Below, in pieces: positions 9,571 to 16,347 of a stretch of DNA of 37,296 nt. This DNA is from an uncultured Actinomycetes bacterium (GTDB taxonomy: Bacteria > Actinomycetota > Actinomycetes > Nanopelagicales > Nanopelagicaceae). Position 1 is the first letter of the stretch. Every line of letters starts with the position of its first letter. The position numbers were made by a program, and so were the translations under genes. The notes below the pieces were generated by a model. It had not been told where the DNA came from and made no database searches. It saw only the letters and a list, made by a program, of their open reading frames with translations. The DNA lies in assembly GCA_903821145.1 (NCBI GenBank), contig CAIJKC010000037.1, forward strand, positions 1 through 37,296, written 5' to 3'.

Positions 9571-11583
9571 ATGTCTTTTGAAAAACTTGGCGTTCACCCT
9601 GCGCTCGCGCAGGCTCTGGCTGATGAAGGTAAAACCACAGCATTTCCGATTCAGGAAGCGACTCTGCCTGAAGCAATTTCAGGACGCGACATTCTTGGCC
9701 GCGGTCAGACTGGATCAGGTAAGACTCTTGCCTTTGGTCTAGCAATGATGACTCGCCTTGCTGGTCGCACTGCCCGTCCACATCGCCCGCTTGGTCTCGT
9801 CCTTGCACCAACTCGCGAACTCGCTGTTCAGATCAGCGAAGTTATCGCACCACTTTCTCGCACCGTTAATCTCAACTCCCAAGTTGTTGCTGGCGGCATG
9901 CCATACATGCGTCAGATCCAAGCTTTGAAGCGCGGTGTGCCAATCGTTGTCGCAACACCAGGTCGTTTGATGGACCTACTCGATAAGGGTCACATTGACC
10001 TGAGCGAAGTAGAGATCACTGTTCTTGATGAAGCGGATCAGATGGCTGATATGGGCTTCTTGCCATCAGTGAAAGAGATCTTGGCGCTGACGAAAAAAGA
10101 TGGCCAACGCCTGCTCTTCTCAGCAACCCTTGATCGCGATGTCGACACACTCGTCAAAATGTTCTTAAAAAATCCCGTGACACACTCACTTGAAAACGAG
10201 AAGTCCACAGCTGGTCGCATGCTCCACCACATCTTGATCATGGATCAAGCTCATAAGGATCTTATTTCTACCCAGATTGCAGCACGTGAAGGTCGCACGA
10301 TCTTCTTCGTTCGCACCAAGCATGGCGCAGATAAACTCGCTGAGAAGATGCTCCGCGCTGGTGTTCCAGTCGGCGTCCTTCACGGTGGAAAGTCACAAGG
10401 TCAGCGCACACGCGTGCTTGCAGCCTTTAAAGATGGCAAGACCAATGCACTTGTTGCTACCGATGTTGCAGCTCGCGGTATCCACGTAGATGGCGTATCC
10501 CTCGTTGTTCACGTTGATGCACCAGCTGATCACAAGGATTATCTCCACCGCGCCGGTCGTACCGCACGTGCTGGTGAGTCCGGCACAGTCGTCACACTCG
10601 CTACCTCAAAACAGAAGAAGGGCATTCATGGGCTGGCATCTCGCGCAGCAGTGAAGCTCGCTGAAGTCTTTGTGAAGCCATCTGATCAAGAACTTATTCG
10701 CGTTACTGGCGCTCAGGAGCCTTCAGGTATTCCGATTCAAGCAGAGCCAGAGAAGCATGAGAGCTCACGTAAGCCTGGAAGCCGCAACCGCGGTGACCGT
10801 GGTGGTCGTGATGAGCGCCCTGCACGTAACCAAGATCGCCCAGATTATCCAAAGCGTGAACGTGCTCCTTACCGCGGTAATAGCGGCAGCGGTGGACGTG
10901 GTGGTTTTGTGAAGAAAGATAAGCCAGAGCAAGTAGTTGAATTCCGTAATAACGAACGTCCAGTTCGCGATTACGAACGTCCACAACGCAATGATCGCCC
11001 TGCACGTGCAACAGATCGTCCAGTAAGGGATGAGCGTCCAGCAACACGTTCATGGGATCGCAATGATCGTCCTGCACGTCCTGCTCGTGATGATCGCAAT
11101 GATCGTCCTGCACCCCGCAGTGATCGCAATGATCGCCCTGCACGGGATGAGCGTCCAGCAACACGTTCATGGGATCGCAATGATCGCCCAGCACGTCCTG
11201 CTCGTGATGATCGTAATGAGCGTCCGGCGCGTCCAGCACGTCCTGATTTTGATCCACGCGATCGCGCTCCTAAGAAGAAGTGGACACCTCAAGAGGTCCG
11301 CAATACAGAGCGTCCATCACGCGATGATCGCAGCGAGAGAGGCGAACGTCCTGCAAAGAAGAGCGCCGCAGCCAAGCCTTATCGCACAAATAAGTTTGAT
11401 CCCATGGCTGAAAAGCCAACGGATGGCTTTCGCGCGAAGTCTGCTGCTAAAAAAGTAGGAAAGAAGGCAGCACCTAAGACTTCAAAGCCAGGTCGTCCTG
11501 GTAAGCCAGCAGTAAAGAAGGCTGCAGGCAAAAAGGCAGCTGGTAAGAAATCTGTAGGCAAGAAGAAGCCTCGTACCAAGTAA
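9571..11583 (+). CDS. DEAD-box RNA helicase with long repetitive basic tail
   Basis: This is a 670-residue protein. Residues 1-375 form a full helicase core: Q-motif FPIQEA, Walker A GQTGSGKT 45-52, PTRELA 80-85, TPGR 129-132, DEAD 153-156, SAT 184-186 and HRAGRTAR from about 326. The tail (about 376-670) is very rich in Arg, Asp, Pro and Asn, with RNDRPAR/RDERPATRSWD blocks. It ends in a Lys/Ala-rich, histone-H1-like stretch. The core unwinds short RNA duplexes in ribosome assembly, mRNA decay or cold adaptation. The disordered tail should bind RNA and may promote condensate formation (inference). The promoter is ambiguous: a TATAGG-like hexamer near the ATG, or an upstream start with a structured leader. 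Confidence 0.95.
   Translation: MSFEKLGVHPALAQALADEGKTTAFPIQEATLPEAISGRDILGRGQTGSGKTLAFGLAMMTRLAGRTARPHRPLGLVLAPTRELAVQISEVIAPLSRTVNLNSQVVAGGMPYMRQIQALKRGVPIVVATPGRLMDLLDKGHIDLSEVEITVLDEADQMADMGFLPSVKEILALTKKDGQRLLFSATLDRDVDTLVKMFLKNPVTHSLENEKSTAGRMLHHILIMDQAHKDLISTQIAAREGRTIFFVRTKHGADKLAEKMLRAGVPVGVLHGGKSQGQRTRVLAAFKDGKTNALVATDVAARGIHVDGVSLVVHVDAPADHKDYLHRAGRTARAGESGTVVTLATSKQKKGIHGLASRAAVKLAEVFVKPSDQELIRVTGAQEPSGIPIQAEPEKHESSRKPGSRNRGDRGGRDERPARNQDRPDYPKRERAPYRGNSGSGGRGGFVKKDKPEQVVEFRNNERPVRDYERPQRNDRPARATDRPVRDERPATRSWDRNDRPARPARDDRNDRPAPRSDRNDRPARDERPATRSWDRNDRPARPARDDRNERPARPARPDFDPRDRAPKKKWTPQEVRNTERPSRDDRSERGERPAKKSAAAKPYRTNKFDPMAEKPTDGFRAKSAAKKVGKKAAPKTSKPGRPGKPAVKKAAGKKAAGKKSVGKKKPRTK
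11027..11222 (+). repeat. 117-bp in-frame direct repeat in the helicase tail
   Basis: A segment beginning GGGATGAGCGTCC at 11027 recurs at 11144, a 117-bp (39-codon) offset. About 75-80 bases are nearly identical in each copy, and shorter copies of the ATGATCG-type core lie in between. It encodes the DERPATRSWDRNDRPARPAR block twice. Confidence 0.85.
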
Positions 11584-11602: not shown

Positions 11603-12205
11603 TTAAGAGAGATAAATATTCTCGTCGAAGTATTGTGCAATATGACCGGTGTTATGGCTAATAACCAGAACACCGGTCGTTTTGCTTAAGAGGGTAATGA
11701 GATCGAGAAGCTTCTGGGTGTACCCAGTATCTTGCGCGCTAAGTGGCTCATCCAGCAAGTAGTACTCAGCAGATTGAATCAGAGCGAGTGCAACGCTCAC
11801 ACGTTGTTGTTGACCTAGGGAGAGCTCGGTAACTTTGGCGCTAAACATGTCAAAGAGGTCGAGAGCTTCAAAGACCTCCCCAGCGTGAGCCGCGCGATTC
11901 TTTGGCTTCACAATCGCAAAAATTTCTTCAACAGTGAAGGCGAGTTCGAAGATTCGCCGTTGTGGGGCAATCGATCGTAATTGTGCCTGTTCTTTCGTCT
12001 TGAGCTTGGCAATATCGTGGCCATTTATCACAATAGAACCCGAGTCCGGTCTGTGAATTCCACCAATCAATTGCAGCAAGGTTGTTTTGCCAGAGCCATT
12101 TGGTCCACCCAGCAGCGTTGCGCACTTATTAGCGATAACAGTCGAAAAGTCATCGAAGACGTGGTTCTCTCCATGAGCGAAGGAGATCTGCTTAACCTCA
12201 ATCAT
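11603..12205 (-). CDS. hmuV: Haem/siderophore-type ABC transporter ATP-binding protein
   Basis: This 200-residue ATPase has Walker A GPNGSGKTT (34-42), Q-loop SIAPQRR, signature LSLGQQQR (128-135), Walker B YYLLDEP and switch His in ISHN. The start at 12205 (MIEVKQ) is chosen over longer in-frame starts because the first strand begins there. It overlaps the permease stop in an ATGATTGA junction. It is shorter than most family members, mainly at the C-terminus. It powers the importer formed with the two genes upstream. Specificity for haem is inferred from the binding protein; iron-siderophore or B12 are alternatives. Confidence 0.85.
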   Translation of the reverse strand: MIEVKQISFAHGENHVFDDFSTVIANKCATLLGGPNGSGKTTLLQLIGGIHRPDSGSIVINGHDIAKLKTKEQAQLRSIAPQRRIFELAFTVEEIFAIVKPKNRAAHAGEVFEALDLFDMFSAKVTELSLGQQQRVSVALALIQSAEYYLLDEPLSAQDTGYTQKLLDLITLLSKTTGVLVISHNTGHIAQYFDENIYLS

Positions 12206-13190
12206 GTGCCACCCACTGACTCTTCTGTGTGCGAAGCAAGATGATGAGCGCTGGTGCGCCAATCAAGCTGGTGATCAAACCAAGGGGGATCTCGTGAGGC
12301 TCAAAGAGTGTGCGAGCAAGGAGATCTGCGAGGAGAAGCAGGGTTGAACCAATCAAAGCGGAGAAAGTGAGCATTCTGCGGTGGGCTGGGCCCACGAGTA
12401 GGCGAACGATATGTGGCACCAAGAGACCTAAGAATGCGATCGATCCAACCGCACTCACTGAAGCCCCGACTAAGAATGCCATGCCCACAATTGCCAAAGC
12501 CCGAAGGCGCCTTGGGTTAATCCCGATGTAGTGGCTGCTGCTCTCACCGAGTGAGTAAGCATCAAGGCGACGTGAGACAAAGAATGAAATGATGATGCCC
12601 ACTTCAATAAACGGTGCGATCACTTGCACACTGTGATTTGTGAGCAAGGAGAGTGAACCAAAGTTCCAAAAGGAGAGACTTTGGATTCCTGGCTTAGGAG
12701 AGATCGCAATCATTAAGCCAGCCATTGCGGTCAATATCGCAGAGACCGCAATACCGGTGAGCAGAAATCCATAACCTTTATTTGGAGCTAAGAGTTGAAC
12801 GAGAAATGCGGCGATGATGGCGAAAAGGACAGCTGCTTCAGCATTGGTGCGCGAGCCATAGGCGGCAGCGCCACTGGATATCACCGCGATAGTTCCAAGG
12901 GTGGCACCACTAGATAATCCAATAAGTGTGGGTTCAGCCAGCGGATTACGGAAGATGCCTTGGGCGATTGCGCCTGCGATTCCAAGGCCAGCGCCAATGA
13001 TGACCGCACCAAGTGCGCGGGGGAAGCGAATTTGCCAGACTGTTGTGCCATCCACACCAGAGTGATGGGTGAGCAAGTTCCAGAGAGAGGTGTGAAGATG
13101 AACAATGCCGCTGCGAAGTGAGAGGGCGAAGAGCACTAAGGCGATTGTTGAAATGAGTATGTAGAGCGCTGCTTGCTTCACTGACTTCAC
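12198..13190 (-). CDS. hmuU: FecCD-type ABC permease (haem-type)
   Basis: This 330-residue protein has about nine to ten hydrophobic segments. It carries the FecCD landmarks RFPRALGAVIIGAGLGIAGA, QGIFRNPLAEPTLIGLSSGA, and the coupling region VGSIAFLGLLVPHIVRLLVG followed by the C-terminal LLADLLART. The dimeric permease forms the channel for haem, cobalamin or iron chelates. It overlaps the binding-protein gene by 4 bp upstream and the ATPase gene by 8 bp downstream, so the three genes are translationally linked. Confidence 0.92.
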   Translation of the reverse strand: MKSVKQAALYILISTIALVLFALSLRSGIVHLHTSLWNLLTHHSGVDGTTVWQIRFPRALGAVIIGAGLGIAGAIAQGIFRNPLAEPTLIGLSSGATLGTIAVISSGAAAYGSRTNAEAAVLFAIIAAFLVQLLAPNKGYGFLLTGIAVSAILTAMAGLMIAISPKPGIQSLSFWNFGSLSLLTNHSVQVIAPFIEVGIIISFFVSRRLDAYSLGESSSHYIGINPRRLRALAIVGMAFLVGASVSAVGSIAFLGLLVPHIVRLLVGPAHRRMLTFSALIGSTLLLLADLLARTLFEPHEIPLGLITSLIGAPALIILLRTQKSQWVAHD

Positions 13191-14086
13191 AGGGTAGATG
13201 CTTTCAGAATATCAGCGCGAAGTTTGGGAATGAGAGGGATAGTTCGTGGCCCAAATGAGAGCAGGAGTGAGTCATCCACTGTCACTACACGCTTATGTTG
13301 GCCTGCCACCGTCTGGGCGATACCTGGGAGCTGGGTTAGGCCGGCAATTCCACCCACGGAGGCAAGCCCCTTGGTCATCAATAAAATCACATCTGGATTG
13401 AGTTTTATCAACTCTTCAGCGCTCATAGCGCTAAATGGTTGGGAGAGATTGGCAGCGCCAACATCGGTAAAGCCCATCGCATGAATGAGTGAGTCTGCCC
13501 CACTGCCTTTGCCACCAATCAAATAAATACTTGATGTCCCACGAAGATAGAGAAAAACTACTGTGATCGGTTTGACTGGGTTATTCATTGATGAAATCTG
13601 CGAAACAAGAAGCTGCGCGGCTTTGGGCGTTCCAATTGCGGTAGCAACCGCATTCTCTTTCTCGGCAATTGTCGTGAGATCGAATGTTGAAGGAATCTTC
13701 ACAATCTTTATCCCAGATCCACCAAGGGTAGCTAGTGCCGATGCTGGTGATGTGTTGGAGTCAACGAGAATCAGGTCCGGCTTCTGAGCCAAGACCATCT
13801 CGGTAGATACATTATGACCCGGGTTATCGATGGGGACTGTAGAAAGTGATGGCATGGTAGATGCGACATCACGTCCTACCAGTATGAACTCATAGCCAAG
13901 TGCAGCGACGATCTCGGCTGAACCATTGGCGAGTGCAACAACACGGTGAACTGACGGGACTTCCCCTGAGTGCACGATCGGAAGTGTGATGTCGGTTGCA
14001 GAGATATCTGACACTAATGGAGTCGATGTAGTGCAACCTGTTAGAAAGAGAGCCGTGCATGCCAAGAGCACGCTCAATTTTTTCAT
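13187..14086 (-). CDS. hmuT: Haem-type ABC transporter substrate-binding lipoprotein
   Basis: This 299-residue protein begins with a lipoprotein signal ending LTGC (lipidated Cys18). Cluster-A-type binding-protein features follow: HRVVALANGSAEIVAALGY, KPDLILVDSN, and SSIYLIGGKGSGADSLI. The last resembles the hemin-binding HmuT subgroup more than ferrichrome or B12 binders. It should hold the ligand outside the membrane and deliver it to the permease. The usual haem-ligating residues were not verified, so specificity remains an inference. It heads the operon; 93 bp separate it from the divergent secreted-protein pair. Confidence 0.85.
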   Translation of the reverse strand: MKKLSVLLACTALFLTGCTTSTPLVSDISATDITLPIVHSGEVPSVHRVVALANGSAEIVAALGYEFILVGRDVASTMPSLSTVPIDNPGHNVSTEMVLAQKPDLILVDSNTSPASALATLGGSGIKIVKIPSTFDLTTIAEKENAVATAIGTPKAAQLLVSQISSMNNPVKPITVVFLYLRGTSSIYLIGGKGSGADSLIHAMGFTDVGAANLSQPFSAMSAEELIKLNPDVILLMTKGLASVGGIAGLTQLPGIAQTVAGQHKRVVTVDDSLLLSFGPRTIPLIPKLRADILKASTL

Positions 14087-14167
14087 GGGATCAGTGTTTC
14101 AGAACCATCAAAACCTTATGCCGACTTTGTGAGCCAAAGTGTCGGAAGCGCTGCGTAGAAATGGTCC

Positions 14168-14173
14168 TATATT
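14168..14173 (+). promoter_or_regulatory. -10 element of the secreted-protein pair (leaderless)
   Basis: TATATT is followed by CCATCT (6 nt) and ATG at 14180, with no Shine-Dalgarno sequence. It faces away from the hmuT-like gene, so the 93-bp gap carries divergent promoters and could hold a shared iron or haem regulator site. Confidence 0.6.
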
Positions 14174-14179
14174 CCATCT

Positions 14180-14692
14180 ATGCGCACAAGAGTAGTTATG
14201 GGACTGGCAGTAGTTGCCCTCTCAATGACTGTGCAGATGGTGCCATCAATGGCATCCTCAAACTCGGTCACCGGCCCACATGGCGAGAGTCTGAAAGTAT
14301 CAAAATCAACTGCTATCAAAAGCGGGGACTCTATTGTTGTTTCAGGCCAGCACTTTGATGAGACCGTCGGGATATATGTGGCGATGTGCAAGGTGGTGCC
14401 CAAGGGCCAGCTTCCGAGCCCATGTGGCGGCGGCGCGGACAAGACTGGCGTGGCAGGTGCGTCAGAATGGGTAAGTTCAAATCCACCAACATATGGCCTG
14501 GGTTTAGCTAAACCATACCTTCCAGGTGGTCGCTTCAGTGTGACACTCAAAGTTTCACCTTTGATCCCAGTACCTAAAGGCAAATCGATTGATTGTCGCA
14601 AAGTTGCGTGTGCGATTTATACCCGCGCAGATCACACGCGTGGGGATGATCGAGCATATGACATCGCGTTTCCACTTACTTTTAAAAAATAA
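14180..14692 (+). CDS. Secreted neocarzinostatin-like domain protein
   Basis: This 170-residue protein has a signal peptide to about residue 26 (cleavage near SMA-S). The mature part is all-beta in pattern: KSGDSIVVSGQHFDETVGIYVAMCKV, a long loop with Cys82, then FSVTLKV and DCRKVACAIYTRADHT ending in DIAFPLTF. Four cysteines (70, 82, 139, 144) could form two disulfides, as in the neocarzinostatin fold, where 'VxGxGF..G..Y.V..C' and 'VDC....C.V' recur. This resemblance is by eye and not tested. It is a paralogue of the next gene's N-terminal domain. It sits divergently from an hmuTUV-like importer, suggesting a role in ligand capture at the surface (inference). Confidence 0.75.
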   Translation: MRTRVVMGLAVVALSMTVQMVPSMASSNSVTGPHGESLKVSKSTAIKSGDSIVVSGQHFDETVGIYVAMCKVVPKGQLPSPCGGGADKTGVAGASEWVSSNPPTYGLGLAKPYLPGGRFSVTLKVSPLIPVPKGKSIDCRKVACAIYTRADHTRGDDRAYDIAFPLTFKK

Positions 14693-14724
14693 TTCACAAC
14701 AAAACCCAGATGAAAGCAGGAGAA

Positions 14725-15726
14725 ATGAAGCGGATAGTTTCAACAATCACAGCGGTAGCTGCAGTAGCACTCAGTGTTGCACTTGCACCACAAGCTCTTG
14801 CTGCAACCACGGTGCAAGGTGGTCCATACACTGGACTCTCATCAGATGCCCCAACCAATATTCATCTAGCGCTTTCAAACTATCCAACTACTCACGGACT
14901 CTATGTTCTTGAAGCGGTAAAGCCTGCAACTAGTGCACGCCCAATGACCACAAATGCGGCAACCCAACTGTGGCTATCAACTGATACCACTGGTGGAGCA
15001 AAATCAATCAAGGGTGATGTCGTGTTGGTTGTAGATAATGGCCATTCATGGGGCGCTGATTGCCTCCACCAGGAGTGTGGAATTTTTATTCGTCTTGACC
15101 ACACAGCAACAAGTGATACCTCCGAGGATCAGTTCATTCCACTCACCTTCGCAGCAAGCGCCGGAACGGGTAGCACCACACCAGCACCTACCTCTGGTGC
15201 AGCAACAGGGCTAGGCCCAGATCTCCTTACCGTGACAGCAAACGGCAAGGCTTTAGCTCAAAATGTGCCTGGAACAATCTCTTATCGCACGCCTCTCACC
15301 TTCGTCGTGACCACTGGTTCCGGTGTGAAGGCGACCCTCAAGTCATACACACCAGATCTTTGCCCAGTAACCGGCAATGTCGTTGATGCGCTCAAGGGAA
15401 CTGGCGCCTGCGATATCGCAATCACATCTGCAGGTGATGCCACACATGGCCCAATTACTGCTCACTTCCCCTTGATAGTCTCACCAGGAGTCCAGAGCAT
15501 CAAAATAACCTCTGCTTCACTGAAGATAGGGAAGAGTGCAACTCTCTCTGCGTTAACCGGATTCGGTGAGAAAGTTACATACAAGAGCGCATCAAAGAGT
15601 TGTTCAGTAAAGGGATCAGCTGTGAAGGCACTTGCTGTCGGAACATGTTCTGTGACTGCAACTGCTGCTGGAACTGCGAACTACGCAGCGCTGAGCACGA
15701 GTGTTGTCGTAACTGTGAAGAAGTAA
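14725..15726 (+). CDS. Secreted protein: neocarzinostatin-like domain plus two Ig-like repeats
   Basis: This protein has 333 residues from ATG 14725, which is preferred over 14710 because AGGAG lies 5 nt upstream of it. A signal peptide runs to about residue 27 (ALA). Residues 28-143 match the preceding protein: GLYV, then DC....CGIFIRLDHT (Cys113, Cys118) and FIPLTF, but the first disulfide pair is missing. A Thr/Pro/Ser linker follows. Two Cys-paired Ig-like repeats close it (Cys213/229 and Cys293/308), the last with TATAAGTANYAAL, the same repeat family as the gene at 3-701. It is probably co-transcribed with the upstream paralogue, 32 bp away. A surface-exposed adaptor or binding protein is plausible; the ligand is unknown. 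Confidence 0.75.
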   Translation: MKRIVSTITAVAAVALSVALAPQALAATTVQGGPYTGLSSDAPTNIHLALSNYPTTHGLYVLEAVKPATSARPMTTNAATQLWLSTDTTGGAKSIKGDVVLVVDNGHSWGADCLHQECGIFIRLDHTATSDTSEDQFIPLTFAASAGTGSTTPAPTSGAATGLGPDLLTVTANGKALAQNVPGTISYRTPLTFVVTTGSGVKATLKSYTPDLCPVTGNVVDALKGTGACDIAITSAGDATHGPITAHFPLIVSPGVQSIKITSASLKIGKSATLSALTGFGEKVTYKSASKSCSVKGSAVKALAVGTCSVTATAAGTANYAALSTSVVVTVKK

Positions 15727-15740
15727 GTTTTACACTTCTT
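15718..15740. terminator. Possible bidirectional terminator at a convergent junction
   Basis: AAGAAGT (15718-15724) and ACTTCTT (15734-15740) form a 7-bp, AT-rich stem spanning the two stop codons of the convergent genes ending at 15726 and 15739. The stem is weak, so the call rests on placement. Confidence 0.35.
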
Positions 15741-16347
15741 AAACGAGGGCTCGGAGTCCAGCAAGTGCGAATTTTGTAGCACTCTGGATTTCGAGCTCTG
15801 CATCATTTCCAGCATCAATGCGAACGGATGCAGCATCTGTAACACTTTGTAAGAAGGCCGCAGCAGACATCGGATCTGCAATTCCAGTTTCACTCAGCGC
15901 TTTGCGCAATGGTGCAAGTAATTTACGGTGTCCAAGGGCAATCTCTTCTTTGCGATATTCAGGTGCAGTGATCGTATTGAGAGACTTCACCAACATATGG
16001 CGACCATCGGCAACATAACGTAGGCCTTCAGCGATCCATTGTGCTATCTGATCAAAGGGATCTGTCACATCTTTAATAGCTGTAGCTAGACGTGCTGTGT
16101 AGTAATCAAGCTCTTCGATGACTAGATCTGCAACAAGGTCGGCAGAGCTTTCAAAGTATTCATAGACAGAGGAACGAGCAAGACCAGCCTTATTCGCCAC
16201 CGCAGCCACCGTGATGGCTGAAGCGCCTTCATTCATCGCAAGTTCCATCGCAGCGCTCATCAGTTGCTGACGGCGAAGCTCGCGGTGAGCTAGGAGAGTA
16301 GGGGCTTGAATCTTTGGCACGGGGTAATTATCGCTTGCGGCCTTCAA
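15739..16347 (-). CDS. TetR family transcriptional regulator
   Basis: This 202-residue protein has an N-terminal helix-turn-helix at about 30-70: RRQQLMSAAMELAMNEG, then ITVAAVANKAGLARSSVYEYFES, a textbook TetR recognition helix. The C-terminal ligand-binding part is helical and unassigned. It overlaps the 3' end of the DMT permease gene by 20 bp and is the third gene of the LCP-permease-TetR unit. It therefore may control that unit or the permease's substrate response. No operator could be assigned. Confidence 0.88.
   Translation of the reverse strand: MKAASDNYPVPKIQAPTLLAHRELRRQQLMSAAMELAMNEGASAITVAAVANKAGLARSSVYEYFESSADLVADLVIEELDYYTARLATAIKDVTDPFDQIAQWIAEGLRYVADGRHMLVKSLNTITAPEYRKEEIALGHRKLLAPLRKALSETGIADPMSAAAFLQSVTDAASVRIDAGNDAELEIQSATKFALAGLRALV

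Follow-up and report, generated by a model that had tools for sequence, protein, structure and literature searches.

In a 37,296-nucleotide stretch of DNA from an uncultured actinobacterium of the Nanopelagicaceae (the window), the genes of an ATP-binding cassette (ABC) importer, hmuTUV, lie on the minus strand and diverge from two plus-strand genes, ncs1 and ncs2, that encode secreted proteins; a DEAD-box helicase gene and a TetR regulator gene flank the locus. An initial annotation, made from the sequence alone, had described this arrangement, and its coordinates and divergent layout are correct (Table 1). Our analysis indicates that NCS1 and NCS2 very probably belong to haem acquisition. 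The association with hmuTUV on which that annotation built is not peculiar to the window: NCS1-type proteins co-occur with the importer, nearly always adjacent to it, far beyond the window's lineage.

The importer and the two secreted proteins

A phmmer search of the PDB with HmuT returned Corynebacterium glutamicum HmuT (CgHmuT; 5az3) as the first match, with E 2.1e-35, and almost all further matches carry the names of haem-binding proteins, among them Yersinia HmuT and HutB. In CgHmuT, His141 and Tyr240 are the axial haem ligands and Arg242 is a supporting residue (PMC4926363). These three positions align with His91, Tyr180 and Arg182 of the window's HmuT, which are invariant in an HmuT alignment spanning several lineages (A3). 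Because the solved relatives of HmuT bind haem and the residues of the haem site are conserved, HmuTUV is, judged by its sequence, a genuine haem ABC importer, and the earlier label 'hmuTUV-like' is borne out. The generic Pfam and NCBIfam models are less specific than these PDB relatives. For HmuV, the top NCBIfam model is a haem ABC ATP-binding protein (1.7e-33, under the model's cut-off); for HmuU, the best-scoring NCBIfam models are those for F420-0/B12, also under cut-off. An importer for another substrate (siderophore, cobalamin or F420-0) was rejected on the basis of HmuT's relatives and ligand residues.

NCS1 is predicted to have the neocarzinostatin fold, a small β-sandwich with a cleft that, in its known relatives, accommodates a flat hydrophobic ligand. 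The AlphaFold2 (AF2) model of NCS1 has a predicted local distance difference test score (pLDDT) of 81.5, exceeding 90 in the core. The first 13 Foldseek matches to this model are all neocarzinostatin-fold proteins (neocarzinostatin, including engineered mutants and a complex, macromomycin, C-1027 and kedarcidin), and VIA-align gave Z up to 12.6 for neocarzinostatin-family structures (TM to target 0.72–0.75) versus 8.0 for the next, unrelated fold. In an alignment of NCS1-family proteins that includes distant members (A2), W97, SSNPP 99–103, Y105, four cysteines and R-x-DH-x-R..DR..D are invariant, which yields the signature W97-V/I-SSNPP-x-YG, C70/C82, C139/C144 and R149-x-D151-H152. Both disulphide pairs, C70/C82 and C139/C144, are in common with neocarzinostatin, macromomycin and C-1027, the pairing being assigned by homology. 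NCS1 differs from these PF00960 chromoproteins in its identity of about 18–24%, in the inserted WISSNPPxYG segment and in its setting among haem-uptake genes instead of an enediyne cluster.

The fold, together with weak matches to the Pfam and NCBIfam models, is what would be expected if NCS1 and NCS2 carried the chromophore of an enediyne or another antibiotic, as the apoproteins of the classical neocarzinostatin family do. However, NCS1 scores 21.4 bits (E 2.5e-4) against the Pfam Neocarzinostat model PF00960, below its gathering score of 25, and 24.8 against the NCBIfam chromoprotein model, which has a cut-off of 86. In a Pfam scan, the surrounding genes encode the importer, the helicase, TetR, YdcZ and LytR, with no biosynthetic genes in a neighbourhood of haem uptake, and the genome measures 1.3 Mb. 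An antibiotic role thus has almost negligible probability, and identity as an antibiotic chromoprotein was rejected on the family cut-offs and gene context.

The two secreted proteins are related to each other. A profile of the NCS1 family (A2) finds NCS2 of the window genome at E 2.6e-8, from which it follows that the two are divergent paralogues and that the motifs they share are not due to chance. The shared DC....C.I..R.DHT...PLTF motif is present in both as the initial annotation had written it (DCRKVACAIYTRADHT...PLTF in NCS1 and DCLHQECGIFIRLDHT...PLTF in NCS2), and the profile search and the predicted structure of NCS1 agree with its description of the pair as neocarzinostatin-like paralogues. 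In the NCS-like domain of NCS2, His120 and His131 are invariant (alignment A4). The AF2 model of NCS2 (pLDDT 72.5; predicted template modelling score (pTM) 0.44) supports the two immunoglobulin (Ig)-like repeats noted earlier, and in Foldseek the whole model matched only long multi-Ig (surface) proteins. Since the Ig tail dominates the Foldseek result and the pTM is low, assignment of the NCS-like domain rests on the sequence profile. The tail appears dispensable, given that NCS2 of many genus-mates is a single domain without it. Neither protein has a Pfam match to HtaA (CR domain, PF04213), by which HtaA homology was rejected, or a NEAT profile match at E ≤ 1.

Linkage of NCS1 to haem import

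When 84,980 species genomes were scanned for NCS1 motifs, with haem genes ignored, 267 relatives were found. In 79 of the best 80 of these 267 loci HmuT adjoins NCS1, and the remaining locus ends at a contig end. The best-80 set consists mainly of freshwater Nanopelagicales-type genomes, including that of the cultured isolate LanE-43 (L129), so 395 genomes sampled evenly across the class provide a fairer test. In that sample, 66 genomes encode NCS1 (E 1e-40 or better); 62 of them have HmuT, 58 of them within 5 kb. The corresponding two-by-two table of NCS1 and HmuT (62, 4, 64, 265) gives a Fisher p of 9e-32, uncorrected for phylogeny. Outside the window's family, 39 of the 47 genomes with NCS1 have HmuT within 5 kb, and the 58 close pairs are spread over several families.

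Within the genus, gene order is identical in 27 genus-mates wherever the contig reaches far enough. This full synteny, and the F420-0/B12 permease models that score best albeit under cut-off, would suit the view that the adjacency is inherited without a functional link, or that the importer carries a siderophore, cobalamin or F420-0. We consider that view very improbable and largely refuted by the haem-binding relatives and conserved ligand residues of HmuT, and by a linkage that recurs outside the family in different orientations and with different neighbours. The ncs1 and hmu genes are divergent in the window and co-directional in Actinomadura, Nonomuraea and Catenuloplanes, and in Herbihabitans and several others a haem oxygenase gene (PF01126) lies between or beside them. 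Herbihabitans and Catenuloplanes additionally carry HtaA. This variation in arrangement between lineages shows that the locus is not one frozen block. Haem oxygenase or HtaA is a frequent companion of NCS1 at such loci. In one genome (G055), NCS1 lies next to a haem oxygenase (1e-51) and to an LPxTG protein in which two HtaA domains (7e-89) are combined with a Neocarzinostat segment; at another locus (L189), NCS1 adjoins haem oxygenase alone. In 19 genomes, an HtaA domain and an NCS-like domain occur within one reading frame.

The part of NCS1 that follows this linkage is the WISSNPPxYG segment. Among 103 distinct proteins matching the loose signature, 98 adjoin HmuT and 3 lie at contig ends; a further, short locus (L169) belongs to a genome in which HmuT lies at a distance of about 2.4 kb. 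Only one case (L190) is clearly unlinked, and it reads WITSHKP where linked members read WISSNPP. Streptomyces-like members located away from hmuTUV (L185–L188) retain R-DH, but in place of WISSNPP they have WIVPPGD or, in the companion protein, WVNNTYG. NCS1's best sequence match in the PDB is the soluble domain of C. glutamicum ThiX (7qhm chain M; E 4e-4), which has the pattern DC....C...DHT...P.TF in common with NCS1 but lacks WISSNPPxYG. ThiX is a lipoprotein on the cytochrome bcc-aa3 supercomplex, where it is unresolved in the structure, and has no known haem role (PMC8795186); its soluble domain may have the neocarzinostatin fold. In these comparisons of sequences, SSNPPxYG tracks the haem locus and the DHT histidine is general to the superfamily. 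This histidine, named as a candidate ligand in the initial annotation, is invariant but not diagnostic, being present in L185–L188 and in ThiX. As a specific marker it was rejected, because unlinked members retain it. The unlinked NCS1-like pair of L185–L188, which has no WISSNPP block, also includes a protein with a long C-terminal region resembling a β-propeller.

Haem auxotrophy and the shared dyad

Ferrochelatase was found in 1 of 32 genomes of the genus (G011). Haem auxotrophy has been reported for Planktophila (PMC12381374) and for 'Ca. Nanopelagicales', in which it made stable cultivation possible (PMC10202952). Together, the missing ferrochelatase and these reports make the window bacterium a probable haem auxotroph. 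In the window genome and 24 genus-mates, neither HtaA (0/25), in agreement with the earlier remark that no HtaA pattern was visible, nor haem oxygenase of family PF01126 (0/25) was found. Because neither ferrochelatase nor PF01126 haem oxygenase was found, imported haem is probably used in the window's lineage as a cofactor and not as an iron source.

The single genome with ferrochelatase, G011 (99% complete), has no HmuT, no NCS1 and no copy of the promoter dyad described below. At its syntenic site (contig C7, L230), the helicase and the TetR-YdcZ-LytR genes are collinear with the window, and the five genes hmuTUV-ncs1-ncs2 are gone as a block. On a second contig (C21; L229, 428–11966), a second TetR gene (86% identical) is followed by an ncs2 stub, an MFS (major facilitator superfamily) gene, hemH, hemQ, hemY and hemE; the other strand carries hemA, hemC, a gene that occupies the hemD position but matches no family, hemB and hemL. 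The stub is a remnant of the NCS2 C terminus, with 20 of 32 residues identical and a stop. Mis-binning of the haem-synthesis contig is unlikely, as its tetranucleotide composition correlates at r 0.933 with the other G011 contig and at r 0.716 with the window; for reference, r is 0.943 between the two halves of the window. It thus seems that in G011 import was exchanged for synthesis, with the haem-synthesis cluster adjoining the remains of the import module. Because the evidence comes from one genome, a metagenome assembly, it hints at such an exchange but does not amount to a replicated test. In other genera of the family, four genomes (G032, G033, G035 and G036, two of them less than 90% complete) have neither ferrochelatase nor a recognisable HmuT or NCS1.

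The hmuT/ncs1 intergenic region of the window contains a dyad, CCGACT-N13-TGTCGG; in its conserved form the dyad reads CCGACA-N13-TGTCGG. An exact CGAC-N15-GTCG occurs in 59 of 76 distinct homologous regions, with fixed spacing and a variable core, where shuffling predicts 0.19; several of the remaining regions have a one-base variant. The exact copy is single in the window and in the whole window genome. Within the genus, the stronger form of the dyad is almost confined to the hmuT/ncs1 region: it occurs once in the window genome and not in G011, at two sites in G001, both in that region, and at one extra site each in G003 and G006. These results support joint control of the importer and NCS genes. 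A scan of the intergenic region for sigma-70 promoters gave no match. The TetR gene, which adjoins NCS2 in most Nanopelagicales-type loci, encodes a candidate reader of the dyad; it was not accepted as a proven one, since G011 retains TetR although it lacks the dyad, and the window has no exact site beside the TetR gene.

A common divergent promoter region with its dyad, and the haem oxygenase neighbours seen in other genomes, could also be accounted for if the NCS proteins sensed haem outside the cell or protected against it, by trapping toxic haem or reactive oxygen at the cell envelope, and were merely co-regulated with the importer. We regard this as improbable, because scavenging is the likelier need in haem auxotrophs and the NCS genes are missing where haem synthesis occurs.

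A proposed route of haem capture

At lower confidence than a place in haem acquisition, we consider it probable that NCS1 and NCS2 are themselves haem binders and deliver haem to HmuT. We infer such binding from the cleft for flat hydrophobic ligands known in this fold and from the fusions to HtaA. In the proposed route, the two Sec-secreted proteins would bind haem outside the cell, or strip it from released haemoproteins, and hand it to the HmuT lipoprotein; HmuUV would import the haem, which the cell would use intact. Both divergent transcription units would be switched together through the one shared dyad operator, bound by a regulator that may be the neighbouring TetR.

The fusions can also be read differently, as a protein-binding accessory domain could likewise be joined to haem-binding HtaA. 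NCS1 and NCS2 might then be surface receptors or adaptors for a haem-carrying protein (a cytochrome, a haemoglobin-like protein or debris) or for docking of HmuT, with haem bound only by HmuT and, where present, HtaA. The Ig-like tail of the window's NCS2 would suit such a function, as would the strictly conserved SSNPPxYG, which is no classical haem motif. By contrast, single-domain secreted NCS1 (about 140 mature residues) is kept where HtaA is absent, in the 33 genomes of the 395-genome sample that combine NCS1 with HmuT and lack HtaA, and the fold is known to hold small flat hydrophobic ligands in its cleft. A receptor or adaptor function is the main alternative to direct haem binding but, in our judgement, unlikely.

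Several observations weigh against direct haem capture by the NCS proteins or limit its reach. The match of the predicted fold would not by itself reveal the ligand, and the DHT histidine is not haem-specific, as it is kept in the unlinked Streptomyces-like members and in C. glutamicum ThiX. In the 395-genome sample, 64 of 126 genomes with HmuT have no NCS1, and 48 of these 64 carry HtaA; NCS1 is therefore not needed for haem import in general. Nor is the module the sole answer to haem auxotrophy, given that G032 and G036 lack ferrochelatase, HmuT and NCS1 alike. Finally, one genome (G127; L231, 7956–8998) has an NCS2-like gene with a TetR neighbour and neither HmuT nor NCS1, a pair suggesting that NCS2 or TetR can function independently of the importer.

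The proposed haem capture by NCS1 and NCS2 has parallels in known systems. NEAT-domain (Isd) haemophores of Bacillota are Ig-like β proteins that scavenge haem for an ABC importer; NCS1 and NCS2 belong to another phylum and differ in having no NEAT match in Pfam. Closer in layout are HtaA and ChtA of Corynebacterium, CR-domain proteins that act with HmuTUV and HmuO; like the NCS proteins they are secreted or surface proteins encoded beside hmuTUV, and they feed HmuT (PMC12494546). Unlike HtaA, NCS1 and NCS2 have another fold and no CR domain, and the window's lineage has no PF01126 haem oxygenase. The NCS proteins would, by analogy, probably work like HtaA-type capture proteins while sitting outside the HtaA family. 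The initial annotation had proposed a surface capture pair analogous, and not homologous, to HtaA. Co-occurrence with hmuTUV supports the proposal in part, but not as a plain replacement of HtaA, for in other actinobacteria NCS1 is found alongside HtaA, or HtaA itself bears an NCS-like domain.

Two kinds of haemophore, with CR and NEAT domains, are known in Gram-positive bacteria (PMC12494546). Whether NCS1-type proteins form a third such class, with a fold known chiefly from an antibiotic carrier, and whether many of the abundant freshwater actinobacteria that are haem auxotrophs rely on them as their main extracellular haem scavengers, is to us an evenly balanced question. In the open-access literature, to which the search extended, 'neocarzinostatin' was not found together with 'heme uptake' or 'HtaA'; open-access papers pairing it with 'hemin' or 'porphyrin' concern, by title and abstract, drugs, artificial enzymes and other unrelated subjects. 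None of the papers cited here describes how Nanopelagicales capture scarce haem.

Nanopelagicales (acI) are abundant freshwater bacteria, for which the NCS locus offers a concrete candidate for haem capture: it comes with a signature motif and a predicted fold, and one carrier (LanE-43, L129) has been cultivated. If the proposal is correct, a set of secreted neocarzinostatin-like actinobacterial proteins would gain a function, which would suggest a role for a chromophore-carrier fold in the handling of haem or porphyrin.

Table 1. Features of the hmuTUV–ncs1–ncs2 locus, in positions of the window
Feature	Position	Strand	Basis and details
HmuV ATPase	Open reading frame 11603–12262, likely 11603..12205	minus	Internal ATG (MIEVKQ) at 12205, the likely start; PF00005, E 3e-24
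HmuU, FecCD-type permease	12198..13190	minus	PF01032, E 9.5e-80
HmuT, substrate-binding lipoprotein	13187..14086	minus	PF01497; LTGC lipobox; His91, Tyr180, Arg182
Dyad CCGACTTTGTGAGCCAAAGTGTCGG, putative operator	14121..14145	.	Divergent hmuT/ncs1 promoter region
NCS1, secreted protein with predicted neocarzinostatin fold, 170 aa	14180..14692	plus	Sec signal; AF2 model, Foldseek, conservation, HmuT linkage
NCS2, secreted divergent NCS1 paralogue, 338 aa	14710..15726	plus	Sec signal; NCS1-profile match; AF2 model
NCS-like domain of NCS2	About aa 32–150, nt 14803–15159	plus	NCS1 profile, alignment A4
Two Ig-like domains, NCS2 C terminus	15220..15723; about aa 171–258 and 259–338	plus	AF2 strands, pLDDT
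TetR-family regulator	15739..16347	minus	PF00440, E 2.6e-9; syntenic neighbour

The flanking DEAD-box helicase (9571–11583) ends in a long tail of low-complexity repeats rich in R and D; these repeats probably account for the overlapping antisense open reading frames, which would then be artefacts.

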